In this document: positions 55,102 to 63,819 of the stretch, in pieces
How positions within the stretch are numbered: the stretch's first letter is position 1
Layout: every line of letters begins with the position of its first letter
From: Desulfomonilia bacterium
Lineage (GTDB): Bacteria; Desulfobacterota; Desulfomonilia; UBA1062
Length of the DNA: 64,000 nucleotides
Reading direction: 5' to 3'
Assembly (NCBI GenBank): GCA_036567785.1
Contig: DATCTV010000062.1
Coordinates: 248,001-312,000 of the forward strand
Program-made: the position numbers and the translations under genes
The notes under the pieces: model-generated
Told to the model about the DNA's origin: nothing
What the model saw: only the letters and a program-made list of their open reading frames with translations
Database searches by the model: none

Positions 55102-56412
55102 TTAAACGACTTCGCCTGTCAGGGTGTTTTTGTTGCCGCGCGTTATTTTTACCACGGCCTCATGGCCTACAAGGGACAGGGGCCCCACGAAATTCACTAT
55201 CGTATTATGGGTGGTGCGTCCGAATATCTGAGAAGGATTTTTCTGGCTCGGCCCGTCAACGAGCACTTCAAATGTCTGACCTGCCCTTGAGCGGTTTATC
55301 TCAAGCGTTATTCTGTTCTGAATGGTCTGGAGGATTGAAAGCCGCTCCTTTTTGAGCTCTATAGGGACGTCATCCTCGATACCGGCAGCAACGGTGCCGG
55401 GCCTTGGCGAATATTTGAACGAATAGAGCACATCGAACCTTACAGCTTCGATCAGGTCGAGAGTTCTCCTGAAATCATCATCGGTTTCCGTGGAAAACCC
55501 TACCATTGTGTCCGCGCTGAAGGCGATATCCGGCCTGGCCTTCCTGAGTTCGCTCACAAGCCTTAAATAGGAATCAAACGTATAGTTGCGGTTCATCGCC
55601 TTCAGTACCTTGTCAGAGCCTGACTGAAAGGGCAGGTGGATATGGCTGCAGAGATTGTCGAGACTCGCAAAACAGTCGATGAGTTCGGGACTCACATCTT
55701 TAGGGTGTGAGGTTGTGAATCGTATCCTTGTTATGCCGTCAACTTCAGCAATCTTTTTGAGAAGCGCCCCGAAACTTATGCCCCCTGCATACGAGTTCAC
55801 ATTCTGCCCGAGAAGGAAGATTTCCTTTACGCCCCTCTCTGCATGTATCCTTACTTCATCGATTACATTTCTCCAGTCGCGGCTGATCTCTCGGCCCCTT
55901 ACATAGGGAACGATGCAGTATGAGCAGTAGTTGTCGCAGCCCTGCATGATGTTTATGTATGCCCTGTGGCCTGGACGGATAAAAGATTTCTCCGGAATAA
56001 GTTCAAGAGACGGGATGAACTCGGAGAAAGCCGTATGGATTTCCTGAGAGCGGGATTCTCTGACATTCTGAACGATCTCAGGAATTCTGTGAAGCTGATG
56101 AGTGCCTACAACCGCATCTATATACGGCATCTTTGCAATAAGAGCTTCGCCTTCCTGCTGGGCCACGCAGCCGGTGACGATTATTGTTACCCCGGGCCTC
56201 TTCTTCTTAAGATACTTGAGCCGCCCAAGATTGCTCAGAGTCTTTTCCTCGGCCTTTTTTCTTACCGAACAGGTGTTCAGGATTATTACATCGGCGTTTT
56301 CGGAATCGGTTGTTTCATTGTAGCCAAGCCCGGCAAGGGATGAATAAATTTTCTGGCTGTCCAGGTCGTTCATCTGGCAGCCATAGGTGAATATCTGAAC
56401 TTTGCCCTTCAT
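55102..56412 (-). CDS. miaB: tRNA-2-methylthio-N6-isopentenyladenosine synthase MiaB
   Basis: A 436-residue radical-SAM methylthiotransferase. N-terminal UPF0004 domain with cysteines in TYGCQMN (10-16), LNTCSVRKKAEEK and VTGCVAQQEG for the second Fe-S cluster; radical-SAM motif CDNYCSYCIVPYVRGRE (about 158-174, CxxxCxxC); C-terminal TRAM domain ending in LTGEVV. It adds the methylthio group to i6A37 of tRNAs. Its ATG overlaps the TGA of the upstream lipoprotein gene (ATGA), so the two share a transcript, an unusual partnership. Confidence 0.93.
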   Translation of the reverse strand: MKGKVQIFTYGCQMNDLDSQKIYSSLAGLGYNETTDSENADVIILNTCSVRKKAEEKTLSNLGRLKYLKKKRPGVTIIVTGCVAQQEGEALIAKMPYIDAVVGTHQLHRIPEIVQNVRESRSQEIHTAFSEFIPSLELIPEKSFIRPGHRAYINIMQGCDNYCSYCIVPYVRGREISRDWRNVIDEVRIHAERGVKEIFLLGQNVNSYAGGISFGALLKKIAEVDGITRIRFTTSHPKDVSPELIDCFASLDNLCSHIHLPFQSGSDKVLKAMNRNYTFDSYLRLVSELRKARPDIAFSADTMVGFSTETDDDFRRTLDLIEAVRFDVLYSFKYSPRPGTVAAGIEDDVPIELKKERLSILQTIQNRITLEINRSRAGQTFEVLVDGPSQKNPSQIFGRTTHNTIVNFVGPLSLVGHEAVVKITRGNKNTLTGEVV

Positions 56413-57731
56413 TCAGGATAAAATGGATCAGGCGTCTTTCCCCATACCCAGAGCTGACCGTCCGCAGTCCTGAAATAAACAAGACCTTCGGCGCTCACAA
56501 TGGTATAATCAAAAACAAGGCCGGCAGGGAATACCCCTTGCGTGTCGGGATTGAACCACTGGTCTTCTCCGGCAGCCGGTGACGGATTATATCTGTATTT
56601 GCCTACCCATATTCTGCCTTTCGGGTCTTTTGAAATTTTGGACACGCTGCTGATGTCAATACCCGTTGGCGTTATATCTGAGGAACTCCATGTTATTCCA
56701 TCAGGTTTGTAATATTGCATAAGCTTACCGTTATCAAGCAGGGCGAAGATGTTAAGCGGACTTGACTTCGCAACCACAGAAAGTGTTTTTTCACCTGAAT
56801 CAGATGGGAGATGCTCCCAGTTCATGGCGTTTGTAGTGCAGTAGTATACGCCCATAGAGGTTGCGACCGCGGAAAGACTGCCTGAATTATCGGCATTGTA
56901 TGATTCATAGGGGATCTGATTTGTAAAACCTGTTGTTATTGTATCAAACTTCCATAAGCCCGAATCTGCCGAGATCCAGATATTGTCGTTGATAAGAGTG
57001 AGACTGTTGACGGAGTCGGTTGGGCTTGTTGTCTTTGTATATACGATATCATCCGCCGATGAACTGTGATCGACCAGTGATAAACTGTCACCGTTCATAT
57101 AGCCCCCCCATATAACATAAGAGGTAGCGTAAAATATTGAATAATATATGGGATAAATTGCTTCCAGAGGGTAGGTTCCACCCCAGCCCATATCAATTTT
57201 GAACATTACGGATGTGAACATCTTTACATTGTTTGAGACAGTTCCGTCACTGTTCTTGTCGCCGGACACCACTGCAAATATTCCGCCGGACATTGTATTC
57301 ACGTCATAACTTATGGATTCAGCTGTTGCAGGGTTTGCGTTCATAAGCTGTATGATTCCTCGGGCTGAAACATTAATTATGAAACATGCCGTCTCCGTCT
57401 TATCATCCAGTTTGTCTCCGATGGTGCATGTCACGGTATAGGTTCCCGGTGTCCGGGGAGCCACCCAGTACAGACCATACAAGCTGGTAACCGTTCCCGG
57501 TGTTATAATATTTCCGTTGCCGTCCTGAAAGTAGCTGTCTGAACTGTCACAATTCCAGGTGTACGTCATGGGAGGATTGTTGGTCAGACAGGACACTCCC
57601 AGGACTATTTTCTGTTCGGTGACAGGGTAACGGTCTGAAAGGGAGACTGACGTAATATCAGGCCCGTCAGCGGAACATGCGGCTGAAAGCAATATGAATA
57701 ATGAAACAAATATAAAGTCAAGCTTTCTCAC
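56409..57731 (-). CDS. Ig/PKD-like lipoprotein with propeller-like C-terminal region
   Basis: A 440-residue lipoprotein (GTG start; lipobox LSAAC about residue 19). Residues about 25-125 form an Ig/PKD-like unit: DRYPVTEQKIVLGVSC, TYTWNCDSSD, PGTYTVTCTIGD. Residues about 140-440 are a run of short strands with repeated W and G turns (LTLINDNIWISADSGLWKF, GVYYCTTNAMNWEHLPSD, PKGRIWVGKYRYNP, YFRTADGQLWVWGKTPD), as in two-component-regulator or ligand beta-propellers. No enzyme motif. It is transcribed ahead of miaB with a four-base overlap. Confidence 0.65.
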   Translation of the reverse strand: MRKLDFIFVSLFILLSAACSADGPDITSVSLSDRYPVTEQKIVLGVSCLTNNPPMTYTWNCDSSDSYFQDGNGNIITPGTVTSLYGLYWVAPRTPGTYTVTCTIGDKLDDKTETACFIINVSARGIIQLMNANPATAESISYDVNTMSGGIFAVVSGDKNSDGTVSNNVKMFTSVMFKIDMGWGGTYPLEAIYPIYYSIFYATSYVIWGGYMNGDSLSLVDHSSSADDIVYTKTTSPTDSVNSLTLINDNIWISADSGLWKFDTITTGFTNQIPYESYNADNSGSLSAVATSMGVYYCTTNAMNWEHLPSDSGEKTLSVVAKSSPLNIFALLDNGKLMQYYKPDGITWSSSDITPTGIDISSVSKISKDPKGRIWVGKYRYNPSPAAGEDQWFNPDTQGVFPAGLVFDYTIVSAEGLVYFRTADGQLWVWGKTPDPFYPE

Positions 57732-57841
57732 AAAAATTATTCCTCCATACCGGGATTGAAGGGTTTCATATCAGATAGAGATAAAAGCTTCAAGTTGTGA
57801 TAAAAGATATACAATCAATATTTAATATCCCGAGGGACTTT

Positions 57842-59503
57842 ATGATACTTGGCATTGATGTCGGCGGTACTCATACTGATGTTGTATGTATCAGCAAGGG
57901 AGAGGTTGTTTCATCCATGAAGGTGGAAACAGCCCCCGATATTGTCGAATCAATCACTGCAGGGGTTTCATCCATGAATATCGATTACGATGGCATCAAG
58001 AGAGTTGTACTTTCGACAACCCTTACCACCAATGCGATAATCGAAAACAGGCTTGAAAGGGCGGGGATGTTTGTGAGTGCAGGGCCCGGCGTCAATCCTA
58101 AATCATATTTCCTCAACAGGGATTTTCATCTTATTGAAGGCGCCATAGACCACAGGGGCAGGCAATATATACCTCTCGATGAGCCTGGAGTGGAGCGTGC
58201 CGCGCGGCTGCTCAAGGATTCGGGGATTGATTCGGTCGGCATAGTATCGAAATTTTCGGTAAGAAATCATTATCATGAACTCAGGATAAAATTCATGATA
58301 GAAGGAAGGTTCAAATACGTTACAATGGGGCACCAGATGAGCGGCAGCCTCAATTTTCCAAGAAGAATCCATACGGTATTTTTTAATGCAGGCGTTCTGC
58401 CTGTTCAGGCCCGTTTTGTCTCTTCAGTCAAAAAAGCATTTGCCGGACTGGGAATCAAATCCAGAATTCTCTTTTTGAAGGCGGACGGCGGGACATTCTC
58501 TTCATCTGCCGCGGAAAGGCTTCCTGTTGAAACAATCATTTCGGGACCGGCAGCCAGCATAATGGGGGCTTTTGCATTAAGGCCGGATGAAAAATGTGCC
58601 GCAGTGCTCGATATTGGAGGCACCACGACTGATATAGGGCTACTTGCGCTTGGCCTGCCCGTATTCGAACCGAAAGGCATAAGCATTAAAGGTCTCAAAA
58701 CCCTTGTGAGAGGCCTGAAAACAGTTTCAGTCGGTGCAGGCGGCGATTCGGCTGTTATTGTCGATAAGGGAAATATACAAGTGGGCCCCTCAAGAAAAGG
58801 GCCTCCGTGCTGTCTGGGCGGAACTGTTCCCACGGTAATGGATGCCTTGAGGGTGCTGGGCTATGTAAAAACAGGCAGCGAGGATAAGGCGGTAAAAGCC
58901 GTAAGCGATATTGCTTCGGCCTGCGGGATGAATGTCGAAGAAACAGCAAAGACTATTATCAGACAGATGGTGGGCATAATAAAAAATGCGTACACGGATT
59001 TTCTGGAAGATGTGAATGCGAATCCTGTCTATACCATATATGAAATGCTTCATCCTGAAACCGTCAAACCTGAGAAGATTATACTGATCGGGGGTCCGGC
59101 ACTAGCGCTGAAAACATTTATTGAGGAGGAGTTGGGCATACCCTGCGTAGTACCTGAAAATTATGATGTTGCAAATGCCATAGGCGCAGCGGTCTCTAAG
59201 ACGACGGCCAGGATAACTCTCCTTGCAGATACCCAGCGAAAACAGATGATATGCCCTGAACTTGAAGCTGAAGATATAATACCTCCCACGTATATGATTG
59301 AAGACTTGAAAAGCAGCGGGGAAAGACTCTTGAAAAAAAATGCTGTTTTTCTTGGCCTTGCAGATGACTACGGAATTGATGTCGTTGAAGAGCAGTGCTT
59401 CAACATGGTCAGCGGGTTCAGGACTGTGGGCAGGAATATGAGGCTCAAGCTCCAGACCAGGCCCGGGATCATACCGGAATTCAGAAGAAAGGCTTCAGGG
59501 TGA
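57842..59503 (+). CDS. Hydantoinase/oxoprolinase-family protein (HyuA-like)
   Basis: A 553-residue protein of the HyuA/ATP-dependent oxoprolinase group in the ASKHA ATPase fold. The phosphate loop is GIDVGGTHTDVV (about 4-15, with His where Phe is usual), then LTTNAI, ISGPAASIMGA, the second loop LDIGGTTTDIG (about 260-270) and SVGAGGDSAV. Family members phosphorylate and open cyclic amides or carboxylate ketones, normally with a HyuB partner, which is absent here. ATG 57842 follows CGAGGGAC. Its stop overlaps the HDAC-fold gene (GTGA). Confidence 0.8.
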   Translation: MILGIDVGGTHTDVVCISKGEVVSSMKVETAPDIVESITAGVSSMNIDYDGIKRVVLSTTLTTNAIIENRLERAGMFVSAGPGVNPKSYFLNRDFHLIEGAIDHRGRQYIPLDEPGVERAARLLKDSGIDSVGIVSKFSVRNHYHELRIKFMIEGRFKYVTMGHQMSGSLNFPRRIHTVFFNAGVLPVQARFVSSVKKAFAGLGIKSRILFLKADGGTFSSSAAERLPVETIISGPAASIMGAFALRPDEKCAAVLDIGGTTTDIGLLALGLPVFEPKGISIKGLKTLVRGLKTVSVGAGGDSAVIVDKGNIQVGPSRKGPPCCLGGTVPTVMDALRVLGYVKTGSEDKAVKAVSDIASACGMNVEETAKTIIRQMVGIIKNAYTDFLEDVNANPVYTIYEMLHPETVKPEKIILIGGPALALKTFIEEELGIPCVVPENYDVANAIGAAVSKTTARITLLADTQRKQMICPELEAEDIIPPTYMIEDLKSSGERLLKKNAVFLGLADDYGIDVVEEQCFNMVSGFRTVGRNMRLKLQTRPGIIPEFRRKASG

Positions 59504-60813
59504 AGACAGGAAGGATCAAGGCAAAAAACAGAACCGGGCTTATTTTCTTTCCGGCCTATGACTGGGAGATATCGGCCTTCCATCCGGAAAGGAAAGAGCG
59601 CCTTCTTTACACCCATGATCAGGTCATCGAGGAGGGGTTGCTTGACATTGAAGGGATAAGCGAATTCAAGGCCGGAATTGCAACGGATAAGGACATATCA
59701 AGGGTTCATTTCTGTCTTCCGGACATAGATTCGGTTATAACGGATTCCCACAGGATATCAGCGGGCGGCTGCATCGAGGCCGCAAGGCTTGTGCTTGAGA
59801 AGAAGGTGGACAGGTCATTCGCACTTGTAAGGCCTCCAGGTCATCATTCCATGCGTGTCGTCCACGGTTGCAGGGGTTTCTGCAATATCAACATGGAAGC
59901 GATCATGGTTGAATGGATCAGGACGAATTACCCGCATATCAAGAAAATTGTTATCGTAGACACCGACTGCCATCATGGAGACGGCACACAGGATATTTTC
60001 TGGCATGACCCGGATATACTCTTTATTTCCGTGCATCAGGATGGAAGGACGCTCTATCCCTGGTCCGGATTTCCTGAAGATCTGGGCGGTTCAGGGGCGA
60101 GGGGGATGACGCTGAATGTGCCGCTTCCTCCCGGAACGACCGACGACGGATTCATATATGTAGCTGAAAACCTGATCAGGCCGATACTCGATGAATTCAA
60201 ACCTGATATTGTCATAAACTCGGCCGGGCAGGACAACCACTATTCCGACCCCATCACCGACATGCAGTTCACTGCGGGAGGTTATGCAAGACTCACCGAA
60301 ATCGTTTCCCCTGACATATGCGTCCTGGAAGGCGGCTATTCCATAGAAATGGCCCTGCCGTATATCAATACGGGCATAATACTTTCCCTTGCAGGCGTGG
60401 ATTATTCATATCTGAAAGAGCCTGATTTCAGGCCTGACAGGTTCAAGCAGGCCTCAGTCGAGATGAAGTATATTGCAGGCTTATGTGACTCGATGCTTAA
60501 TTACTGGCGCAAGAGGCAGGGAATACCCCTGAAAAAGGAAGGCATAGTCGAGCGCCGCAAGACCGTAAGATATGACACCGACAATATAGTTGACAGACAG
60601 GCCGAGTTTAAGAAGATGTGCGACTGTCCAGGGGTATTCAGGATTGAGACAAGGGCGTCAACCGGAAACAGCGCAACCTGTGTTCATATACCGAGGGGCG
60701 CATGCGAAAGTTGCAGGTCTCAGGGTATTGAATGGTTTGATTCTGCGGAAGGCTTCGACTTCGTGCAGATGCAGGACATGGACAAGGACATATTTACATC
60801 GAGAAAAGGATGA
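59500..60813 (+). CDS. Histone-deacetylase-fold amidohydrolase with Cys-rich C-terminal tail
   Basis: A 437-residue class-II-like HDAC/acetylpolyamine amidohydrolase. Catalytic His pair in RPPGHHSM (H115, H116); Zn ligands D156 and H158 in VDTDCHHGDG and D245 in SAGQDNHYSDP; transition-state Tyr in LEGGY (Y280). Residues about 325-437 are an extra domain with five cysteines (C374, C376, C394, C402, C405; CDC and CESC) that may bind a metal. GTG start at 59500 inside the HyuA stop; its own stop overlaps the patatin ATG. It would remove acyl groups from amines or lysines. Confidence 0.87.
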   Translation: MKTGRIKAKNRTGLIFFPAYDWEISAFHPERKERLLYTHDQVIEEGLLDIEGISEFKAGIATDKDISRVHFCLPDIDSVITDSHRISAGGCIEAARLVLEKKVDRSFALVRPPGHHSMRVVHGCRGFCNINMEAIMVEWIRTNYPHIKKIVIVDTDCHHGDGTQDIFWHDPDILFISVHQDGRTLYPWSGFPEDLGGSGARGMTLNVPLPPGTTDDGFIYVAENLIRPILDEFKPDIVINSAGQDNHYSDPITDMQFTAGGYARLTEIVSPDICVLEGGYSIEMALPYINTGIILSLAGVDYSYLKEPDFRPDRFKQASVEMKYIAGLCDSMLNYWRKRQGIPLKKEGIVERRKTVRYDTDNIVDRQAEFKKMCDCPGVFRIETRASTGNSATCVHIPRGACESCRSQGIEWFDSAEGFDFVQMQDMDKDIFTSRKG

Positions 60814-61706
60814 AGATCAGAAGGAAAAGAAAAGTGGTGCTGGCCCTTGGCGCAGGAAGCGCGAGGGGGCTTGCCCATATCGGTGTGCTGAAGGCCCTGA
60901 AAGAGGCCGGGATCCCGATAGATGCGATTGCCGGAGTATCCTTCGGGGCGATAATTGGCTCATTGTACAGCATTTACAGGGATATAAACGAAGTTGAAAA
61001 GAGGGTCAGGGAATACATGGATTCACCTTTTTTCAAGGACGCTCAGAAAGAGATAAAATCAATGGAAAGGGAATCGGCCCATTCGTTTTTCGAACGCATT
61101 CAGGCGACATTCAAAAAAGGGTATTTCTATACCAAGGCGGTCAACAATCTATCAATTCTGACCCAGGAAACGTTTGTCATGAACATGAGACTTCTCGTAG
61201 GAGACAGGTCTTTTGAGGATATGACGATACCGTTTAAATGCCAGGCGATTGATCTCATTACCGGCGACCCGATTGTGTTCTCGGAAGGCAGCCTGTGCGG
61301 TGCTCTTCAGGCAAGCAGTGCCATCCCGGGATATTTCCCTCCCATAAGCATGCATGATATGCTGCTGGTTGACGGAGGAGTGGCGGAGATGGTGCCTGTA
61401 CACCTGGCGAAGACATTTAATCCTGACTACATAATCGGCGTGAATGTGAGGAAAGGTATTGAGCCTCTGACTGATCCCGATAACGAACTGAAAAACACCT
61501 TTGATGTTATTTTCAGAAGTTATGACATAACCAGGGATTTCATGGACATCTATCTGTGCAATGATCTCGACTGTGTCATCACCCCGGAAATCCATTCTCA
61601 ACACTGGTATGATTTTGACCGCATCGATTATTTTGTGGAACAAGGCTATAAGGCGGGCAGGGCCAAGATAGATGAGATTAAAAAGGATATCTACTGGTTC
61701 TATTGA
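60810..61706 (+). CDS. Patatin-like phospholipase (RssA/NTE type)
   Basis: A 298-residue patatin-fold serine hydrolase. Oxyanion motif ALGAGSARGLAHIG (about 10-23, GxGxxRG-like), nucleophile GVSFGAIIG (Ser about 48) and catalytic Asp in VDGGVAEMVPV (about 192-202). It hydrolyses acyl chains from phospholipids or lysophospholipids at the inner face of the membrane, as no signal peptide is present. The ATG overlaps the TGA of the HDAC-fold gene, third in a three-gene overlap operon. Repeat copy B begins at its stop codon. Confidence 0.88.
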   Translation: MKIRRKRKVVLALGAGSARGLAHIGVLKALKEAGIPIDAIAGVSFGAIIGSLYSIYRDINEVEKRVREYMDSPFFKDAQKEIKSMERESAHSFFERIQATFKKGYFYTKAVNNLSILTQETFVMNMRLLVGDRSFEDMTIPFKCQAIDLITGDPIVFSEGSLCGALQASSAIPGYFPPISMHDMLLVDGGVAEMVPVHLAKTFNPDYIIGVNVRKGIEPLTDPDNELKNTFDVIFRSYDITRDFMDIYLCNDLDCVITPEIHSQHWYDFDRIDYFVEQGYKAGRAKIDEIKKDIYWFY

Positions 61707-61830
61707 TTCCAACTCTCATTCAAGCACTACCTTTGTCGGCTGCGTCGGAATGCTCCTCAGCATACGTTAAAGTATGCTTGCGTCGCCTCCTCCTGGCCTC
61801 CTCGATATCATCTTGAATGAGGGTTGGAAT
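61706..61830 (+). repeat. Dispersed palindromic repeat, copy B
   Basis: A 125-base element with 19-base ends that are inverted repeats with one mismatch (61706-61724 and 61812-61830). Inside are the 25 bases identical to copy A (61730-61754), the core AGCATAC-gttaaa-GTATGCT (61759-61778) and a CTCCT-rich right half. The first base coincides with the last base of the patatin stop codon. The structure resembles a MITE or a large terminator-like palindrome. Confidence 0.78.
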
Positions 61831-61903
61831 ATATGAAAACCATGATAAAAAACACAGACTCCTGCGATTTTTAATATTTTGATGTCAGATAACTAACCGG
61901 ATA

Positions 61904-61992: not shown

Positions 61993-63819
61993 GTGATACT
62001 CTCAGATTATTCAGCTTTCGCGATAACCATAAAACGGTTGCCCTCAATTGTTTTTTTATTGATTTTTTCATGCCTTCTTTCGATAAATTGCAGTTCCCTG
62101 CATCCGGATCGACCTGCCTTCAACAATGGAGATCCTGAAGGCGCGATAAGCGCACTTGACGAAAATATCAGAGTTAACCTGGAGAAGCAACGGATCCCCG
62201 GTGCGGCCGTCGCTTTGGTACATGATGGCCGCGTTATATTTTCGCAATGCTACGGGTATGCAGATACCAGAAAGAAAGTTCCCATAACAGAAGACACTTA
62301 TTTCATGATCGGCTCGCTCACAAAATCCTTTACTGCACTGGCGATACTTAAACTCATAGAACAGGGTAAAATCGATCTCAATGCCGATATAAGGAAATAT
62401 ATCCCCGATTTTTCCATCAAAAACCTTGATGGTGGTGAAACCACGATCACGGTGAATCATCTTCTCACACATACGTCCGGGCTTATGATTGACTATTACC
62501 TGCGTGATAACGGCAAGGAAATTCAATCCGATACCGAACTTCTCTCTCAAATAAAGGATGAATACCTCTGTTTCAAGCCGGGCTCCGCCTCAAAGTATTC
62601 GAATGTCGGATACCGGCTCCTTGGAATCATGATCGAGAGGGTTACCGGTGAACGATTTGAAAAATATATCGAAAAAGAGGTTTTTAAACCGCTTGGTCTG
62701 CGCCAGACCTCTTTTCTTTATACTGATGAAATCGCTGCTCATATGTCCAAGGGGCATAATGGAAATACGGAGATATCGAGGATTGACAACGAAGACAAGC
62801 CTGCGAGCGGTCTGTACAGCACACTCAGGGATCTTACTGTGTTCTTGAGGTTTTTGTCCTCAAGTTCCAATGCTTCAAATGCAGAATTTAACAGCAGCCG
62901 CATAGTGGGTTCAATCATGAAGAATGCTGATCTCACCATCGACACGTTTTATGATAACACGAACATATACTCTTCCGGATGGTATTTGAATTCCTATCAG
63001 TTCAAAGGCATACGTACGACAATATCCGGAAGTGGCAATATCAACGGTTTTTCCTCTGCGATGACTTACATTCCAGAAGAAAGACTCGGAATAGTGATCC
63101 TCACGAATTCGTCTGTCGGATGGAAAGCGAACATGGAAATCATCGCAAGGGGACTTGGTGGCATCATTGATTTATACAGGGTCACCGACACCCAATATCC
63201 TGTTTGTGAAAATAAAGAGATAAAATTCACAGAGGATTATGAATCCTTGTGCGGGCGATATGAGGGTTTTGGCCCTATTGTCGATATTTTTCTGAAGAAA
63301 AATGGATTATACGCGAAATTTAAAGGCCCTGCGGCCCTTCTTATTCCGGAAGGTGATGGCGTTTTCAAACCGGTACTTCGAATTCTCTTCATGGATTTGG
63401 ATGTCGCACGGTTTACCGAATATGAAAGTATACGGTTCAGGTTCGCGAACAACCGCAATGGGGATAAATTCCTGTATATGGAAGCACAGGAAGGCGAATC
63501 TACATTTTCCATTCCACTCCATCATTACCGGAAAAACCTTATTCCCAAGTCTTACAACCGCTATTATGGCATATGGGCACTTGACGGGAATGAGACTTAT
63601 CCGGATATACTGAAACTTTATCTGCCGTCGAATAGGCTGTCTTTTTTCGAAAAGGACGGATGGCCCATGATCAAGATAAATACCTGGATCGGGGAAGGAC
63701 AACTGCTGCTTGTCCCTCTCTCGGAGAATCTGGCTCGTATTGCCGGATCCGGGGAAATTGTCAAAATTAATGAAGATACCATGAGCTATATCGGGCTTTC
63801 ATTTAAAAAGGTACAGTGA
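61993..63819 (+). CDS. Serine beta-lactamase/transpeptidase-like lipoprotein
   Basis: A 608-residue exported hydrolase. GTG start, hydrophobic signal with lipobox-like SINC (about 31-34). The class C beta-lactamase-type domain (about 50-390) has SxxK in GSLTKSFTALA (Ser about 98), YSN in KYSNVGYRLLG (about 197) and LLTHTSG; the KTG-like third motif appears as GSGNINGFSSAM. The C-terminal 200 residues are beta-rich and unassigned (YEGFGPIVDIF, KSYNRYYGIWAL). Such proteins are peptidases or esterases for cell-wall or D-amino acid substrates. Weak ribosome site. Confidence 0.83.
   Translation: MILSDYSAFAITIKRLPSIVFLLIFSCLLSINCSSLHPDRPAFNNGDPEGAISALDENIRVNLEKQRIPGAAVALVHDGRVIFSQCYGYADTRKKVPITEDTYFMIGSLTKSFTALAILKLIEQGKIDLNADIRKYIPDFSIKNLDGGETTITVNHLLTHTSGLMIDYYLRDNGKEIQSDTELLSQIKDEYLCFKPGSASKYSNVGYRLLGIMIERVTGERFEKYIEKEVFKPLGLRQTSFLYTDEIAAHMSKGHNGNTEISRIDNEDKPASGLYSTLRDLTVFLRFLSSSSNASNAEFNSSRIVGSIMKNADLTIDTFYDNTNIYSSGWYLNSYQFKGIRTTISGSGNINGFSSAMTYIPEERLGIVILTNSSVGWKANMEIIARGLGGIIDLYRVTDTQYPVCENKEIKFTEDYESLCGRYEGFGPIVDIFLKKNGLYAKFKGPAALLIPEGDGVFKPVLRILFMDLDVARFTEYESIRFRFANNRNGDKFLYMEAQEGESTFSIPLHHYRKNLIPKSYNRYYGIWALDGNETYPDILKLYLPSNRLSFFEKDGWPMIKINTWIGEGQLLLVPLSENLARIAGSGEIVKINEDTMSYIGLSFKKVQ

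Follow-up and report, generated by a model that had tools for sequence, protein, structure and literature searches.

A conserved HyuA-HDAC gene pair in bacteria and methanogenic archaea suggests a two-part amide-cutting machine

HDACs have been studied as self-sufficient, ATP-independent hydrolases, and HyuA enzymes as the partners of HyuB. In the caprolactamase CapAB, ATP in CapA activates the lactam, which is then hydrolysed at a zinc site in CapB (PMC8453981). The locus described here lies in a 64,000-nucleotide stretch of DNA (the window) and shares with CapAB, 5-oxoprolinase and the HyuAB N-methylhydantoinase the HyuA fold, both ATP phosphate motifs and a two-part make-up, an ATP subunit plus a zinc enzyme. 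Unlike CapAB, however, it encodes a shorter HyuA (CapA has about 696 residues) and neither HyuB nor CapB, and its zinc partner is an HDAC-fold protein. We found no description of a HyuA-HDAC pair in the open-licence literature searched, in keeping with an earlier sequence-only reading that had not recognised the combination as described, and a survey of bacterial deacylases makes no mention of hydantoinase (PMC11532494).

Table 1. Positions of the operon, its internal features and its flanking elements within the window.
Feature	Position	Strand	Remarks
miaB	55102-56412	-	upstream; not part of operon
440-aa ORF	56409-57731	-	divergent, upstream; not part of operon; probable lipoprotein; no Pfam match
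HyuA-like gene	57842-59503	+	ATP-site protein, 553 aa; phosphate motifs DVGGTHTD (residues 6-13) and DIGGTTTD (257-264) intact
GTGA overlap, HyuA stop/HDAC start	59500-59503	+	4 nt; recurs in the window's family
HDAC-fold gene	59500-60813	+	zinc amidohydrolase, 437 aa; GTG start inside GTGA overlap
Extra C-terminal domain of HDAC	60523-60810	+	about residues 342-437; conserved YDTD motif; C374, C376, C402, C405; zinc-ribbon-like
First Cys pair of HDAC	60619-60627		C-x-C
ATGA overlap, HDAC stop/patatin start	60810-60813	+	4 nt; recurs in most family members
Patatin-like hydrolase gene	60810-61706	+	298 aa; ATG start inside ATGA overlap; GVSFG serine motif, DGG
Palindromic repeat	61705-61835		directly 3' of patatin; 19-bp outer stem; fold z-score -5.6
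Serine beta-lactamase-fold hydrolase	61993-63819		3' of operon; 608 aa; lipoprotein-like N-terminus

The three genes of the operon (Table 1) matched the Pfam families Hydantoinase_A (1.2e-42) and Hydant_A_N (8e-28), Hist_deacetyl (2.2e-63) and Patatin (7.2e-28), respectively. The HyuA reading frame is open on the plus strand from either a GTG at 57797 or the ATG at 57842 to its stop at 59503; the ATG is probably the true start, since relatives align from it. That two consecutive four-base overlaps tie the three genes together, as had been noticed from the sequence, was confirmed, and both overlaps are present in most loci of relatives in the window's family, whose protein identity is about 51-74%. 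Promoter and terminator counts were at chance level. The genes thus form a real, tightly overlapping unit within the family, but the triplet as the unit did not hold up: beyond this family only the HyuA-HDAC pair was recovered, and it occurs without an adjoining lipase in other Desulfobacterota, in Bacillota, in Spirochaetota and in archaea.

The predicted HyuA model (mean pLDDT 90.4) aligned over its full length with CapA (6yra; Z 30.0, rmsd 5.3 over 516 residues), and also with acetophenone carboxylase and acetone carboxylase subunits. It has the N- and A-domains and both phosphate motifs characteristic of HyuAB, oxoprolinase and caprolactamase, and these motifs are kept in 118/119 and 114/119 distinct sequences; its score of 121.6 of 1000 bits nevertheless falls far under the caprolactamase equivalog cut-off. 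The HDAC model (pLDDT 85.8) shows the arginase-deacetylase fold and matches the structures of HDAH, Kdac1 and HDAC6 with Z 34-36, over residues 9-341 only. With HdaH, Kdac1 and class II HDACs the protein shares this fold (Z about 36), the RPPGHH and EGGY motifs and the catalytic residues, including the His-His dyad, the Asp/His/Asp zinc ligands and the catalytic Tyr, with H115, H116, D154/D156/H158, D245 and Y280 all intact; it differs from them in its extra, conserved C-terminal Cys domain and in having HyuA as a strict genetic partner, and is just about 25-28% identical to them in structural alignments. The RPPGHH, EGGY and DTDxHHGDG motifs occur in 177, 176 and 173 of 177 sequences. RPPGHH and EGGY, together with a gatekeeper of the PI type (PIT here, PIS in ApaH), are also found in acetylpolyamine amidohydrolases, although these are not the nearest relatives by sequence; across the family the gatekeeper varies, reading DPIT, DPLA, DPLG or DPLT. 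RPPxHH together with EGGY limits the foot pocket to acetyl-sized groups (PMC11532494), and the motifs of this HDAC suggest acetyl or a similarly small acyl group. Two Cys pairs (CxxC..CxxC) in the C-terminal 95 residues are conserved in 174-175 of the 177 sequences, although the first pair of the window's own protein has lost one residue relative to nearly all relatives. The best PDB sequence match of this domain reached only E 0.14, and its matches to Pfam zinc ribbons were weak.

The distribution of the pair was surveyed with an HDAC subfamily profile of 26 rows at a threshold of E<=1e-80, which found the subfamily in 49/198 Desulfobacterota genomes, 118/299 genomes of the Pelotomaculum phylum, 32/198 genomes from the phylum to which a Spirochaetia genome belongs and 83/295 genomes of the Methanothrix phylum; carriers of the pair include named syntrophs and Methanothrix, and Pelotomaculum propionicicum and Desulfoluna spongiiphila are examples of carriers in culture. 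Linkage was likewise counted by profile search, because automatic ORF calling put antisense frames in place of some genes in G+C-rich loci. A same-strand HyuA lies upstream in 169 of 177 distinct full-length HDACs; two of the remainder start at a contig edge, leaving 175 testable loci, and six are without one. Had homologues never been neighbours elsewhere, the overlap would have been dismissed as accidental; instead, the linked loci span Desulfobacterota, the Pelotomaculum phylum, Spirochaetota and methanogenic archaea, with HyuA first in every one, a median of 5 nt between the HyuA stop and the HDAC profile start, and no HyuA-HDAC gene fusion among the loci surveyed. Five of the six exceptions belong to genus g84, whose five genomes encode HyuA elsewhere, far from HDAC, and the sixth is a spirochaete locus (L214, genome G853). 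The pair is thus firmly supported as a deeply conserved module, broader than the local triplet, while the g84 genes and L214, which has no nearby HyuA, show that gene adjacency itself is dispensable. The archaeal matches comprise 21 full-length HDACs and about 60 weaker hits, which cover some 330 positions and have no C-terminal domain; a sister subfamily of about 330-360 residues (L178-L186, L226-L235) is without the Cys domain, and HyuA lies upstream in most of the short-form loci that were read.

The two genes also occur together when linkage is left aside. A separate search with a HyuA profile returned the identical 49/198 Desulfobacterota genomes and, in the Pelotomaculum phylum, 118/299 genomes, of which 116 are common to the HyuA and HDAC sets; in the four discordant genomes, the relevant contigs measure 3.2-7.6 kb and the partner is either truncated at a contig end or fragmentary, with G341, one of the four, showing a reversed order of fragments. 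The corresponding Fisher values, 1e-47 for Desulfobacterota and 2e-78 for the Pelotomaculum phylum, are uncorrected for phylogeny. Simple hitch-hiking is disfavoured because g84 keeps both genes although they are unlinked, and because the pair is scattered over many families. Protein distances of HyuA and HDAC are strongly correlated (Mantel r 0.90, 113 pairs), with shared ancestry contributing to the value. In a quick HDAC tree containing several long branches, archaeal sequences group with those of Bacillota, apart from Desulfobacterota and Spirochaetota, making inter-domain transfer possible. The sequence-only reading had reported a HyuB partner to be missing, and this was borne out not only for the operon but for the window's whole genome (PF02538, E<=1e-20); HyuB is absent from 31/49 pair-bearing Desulfobacterota genomes, the window's own among them, which rules it out as this HyuA's general partner; the other 18 encode a HyuB somewhere, which normally accompanies another HyuA.

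Based on these results, we favour, with somewhat less than an even chance of being right, the explanation that HyuA and HDAC are obligate partners, together making up a two-component hydrolase that cleaves amides or lactams at the cost of ATP, with HDAC in the place of HyuB. This reading rests on the linkage, the identical Desulfobacterota pattern, the near-complete sharing in the Pelotomaculum phylum and the unlinked retention in g84, as well as on the correlated distances, the frequent lack of HyuB, the CapA match, the intact motifs and the precedent of CapAB; we count against it the unlinked g84 genes, L214 and the 18 genomes that do encode HyuB. The HyuA subunit, which keeps its ATP site, would activate an amide as CapA does, as a phosphorylated or carboxylated lactim, and the HDAC-fold zinc amidohydrolase would supply the hydrolytic site in place of HyuB or CapB, while the CxxC..CxxC domain may provide a docking site for HyuA or for the substrate. 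The patatin, added in the window's family, would perhaps act on a linked ester. Of this scheme, genomics shows the partnership, the order of the genes, the lack of HyuB and the intact motifs, and we infer the physical complex, the direct coupling to ATP and the substrate. Known HDACs deacetylate lysine or amines without ATP, so the chemistry does not require direct ATP coupling, and since the HDAC fold is unrelated to that of CapB, the interface between HyuA and HDAC would be new. More tentatively still, the pair could represent a new class of two-subunit, ATP-driven amidohydrolases in bacteria and archaea, in which HyuA hands an ATP-activated amide to an HDAC-fold enzyme. The strictness of the partnership in both bacteria and methanogens points to an unassigned reaction in anaerobes, including methane-cycle syntrophs and methanogens, suggests an undescribed two-part amide-cutting machine, and makes it testable whether an HDAC-type enzyme here needs ATP and HyuA.

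The two proteins could instead catalyse successive steps in the salvage of amines, for example polyamines, with HDAC deacetylating the amines and HyuA opening a lactam or imide derived from the same compounds, in a shared pathway but without a complex. In genus g84 (L254:5889-9970, L248, L249, L290), HDAC directly precedes a carboxynorspermidine synthase-like gene, with nspC also beside it in L254, and nspC is mildly enriched in pair-bearing Desulfobacterota (19 shared genomes versus an expectation of 10.6; Fisher p 0.002 without phylogenetic correction). RPPxHH and EGGY are, moreover, common to bacterial acetylpolyamine deacetylases, whose gatekeeper PIS resembles the PIT of the window (PMC11532494). 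However, nspC is missing from 30/49 pair-bearing genomes, no polyamine genes were observed next to the pair except in g84, and HDAC lacks a Glu gatekeeper of the HDAC10 kind, so that we regard amine salvage as unlikely.

Control by protein deacylation, in which HDAC would deacylate lysines of metabolic enzymes and HyuA would serve as an ATP-sensing regulator or delivery factor, seems to us rather unlikely as well. Such control would be needed by organisms that live on acyl-CoA near equilibrium, the carriers include named syntrophs and Methanothrix, and the nearest solved relatives of HDAC (HDAH, Kdac1, HDAC6) are lysine deacetylases; yet HyuA-type proteins are carbonyl-activating enzymes and not known regulators, and a candidate link to the Wood-Ljungdahl pathway and CODH/ACS was rejected, with CdhC shared by 25 Desulfobacterota genomes where 30 were expected.

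A role in translation or nucleic-acid metabolism, with the pair editing a modified tRNA base or a side chain of an elongation factor and the zinc-ribbon-like domain serving to bind RNA or a protein, would agree with the weak zinc-ribbon matches and with some of the neighbouring genes. In Desulfobacterota, an EpmA-like gene (class II tRNA-synthetase fold) lies directly 3' of HDAC in L048, L237 and L255, and RlmN in L050, L239 and L240; in many Bacillota, mutS and mutL flank the pair and miaB and miaA are among its neighbours (miaB-ylbF-mutS-[pair]-mutL-x-miaA-hfq). These neighbours vary between lineages, however, most loci are without one, and the miaB-mutS-mutL-miaA-hfq order has reasons of its own, which makes this role improbable. 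There is no universal third partner; the next co-directional gene differs by lineage. In six Spirochaetota loci (L270, L271, L273, L065, L092, L098), a type III glutamine synthetase gene is found near the pair on the opposite strand.

The sequence-only reading had proposed that HyuA, HDAC and patatin together process a lipid-linked amide. While the conserved four-base overlap of patatin with HDAC in the window's family speaks for a joint function, no patatin gene was observed next to the pair in loci beyond this family, nor in some members within it, such as L047, and the RPP and EGGY motifs restrict the HDAC pocket to short acyl chains; with the HyuA-HDAC pair as the conserved core, the proposal was not upheld and appears very improbable. 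Judged by its distribution, the patatin is an accessory, local addition to the pair. Its nearest solved relative is PlpD (5fqu, 5.1e-38), and it carries the phospholipase signature of a GxSxG nucleophile motif and a DGG aspartate; it shares the serine and DGG motifs with PlpD and RssA, but is without an outer-membrane barrel and, with 108.6 of 272 bits, stays under the RssA equivalog cut-off. An anti-phage phospholipase of the CBASS effector type was considered and rejected, since the patatin reached just 20.9 of the 200 bits set by the curated NCBIfam model for the CBASS lipase and 22.6 of the 400 bits for DS2_1, and PADLOC gave weak generic lipase matches only, with none for HyuA or HDAC. 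That overlap and adjacency are accidental has nothing in its favour and next to no probability, and is already refuted by linkage and co-occurrence in several phyla and two domains.

Around the operon, the frame of the 440-residue probable lipoprotein is conserved next to the pair, in 16 loci from the window's family. The long palindromic repeat behind the patatin gene has 16 further matches, whole or partial, in the window's own genome; it resembles mobile palindromic elements or a REP-like family, and may also form the transcript end.
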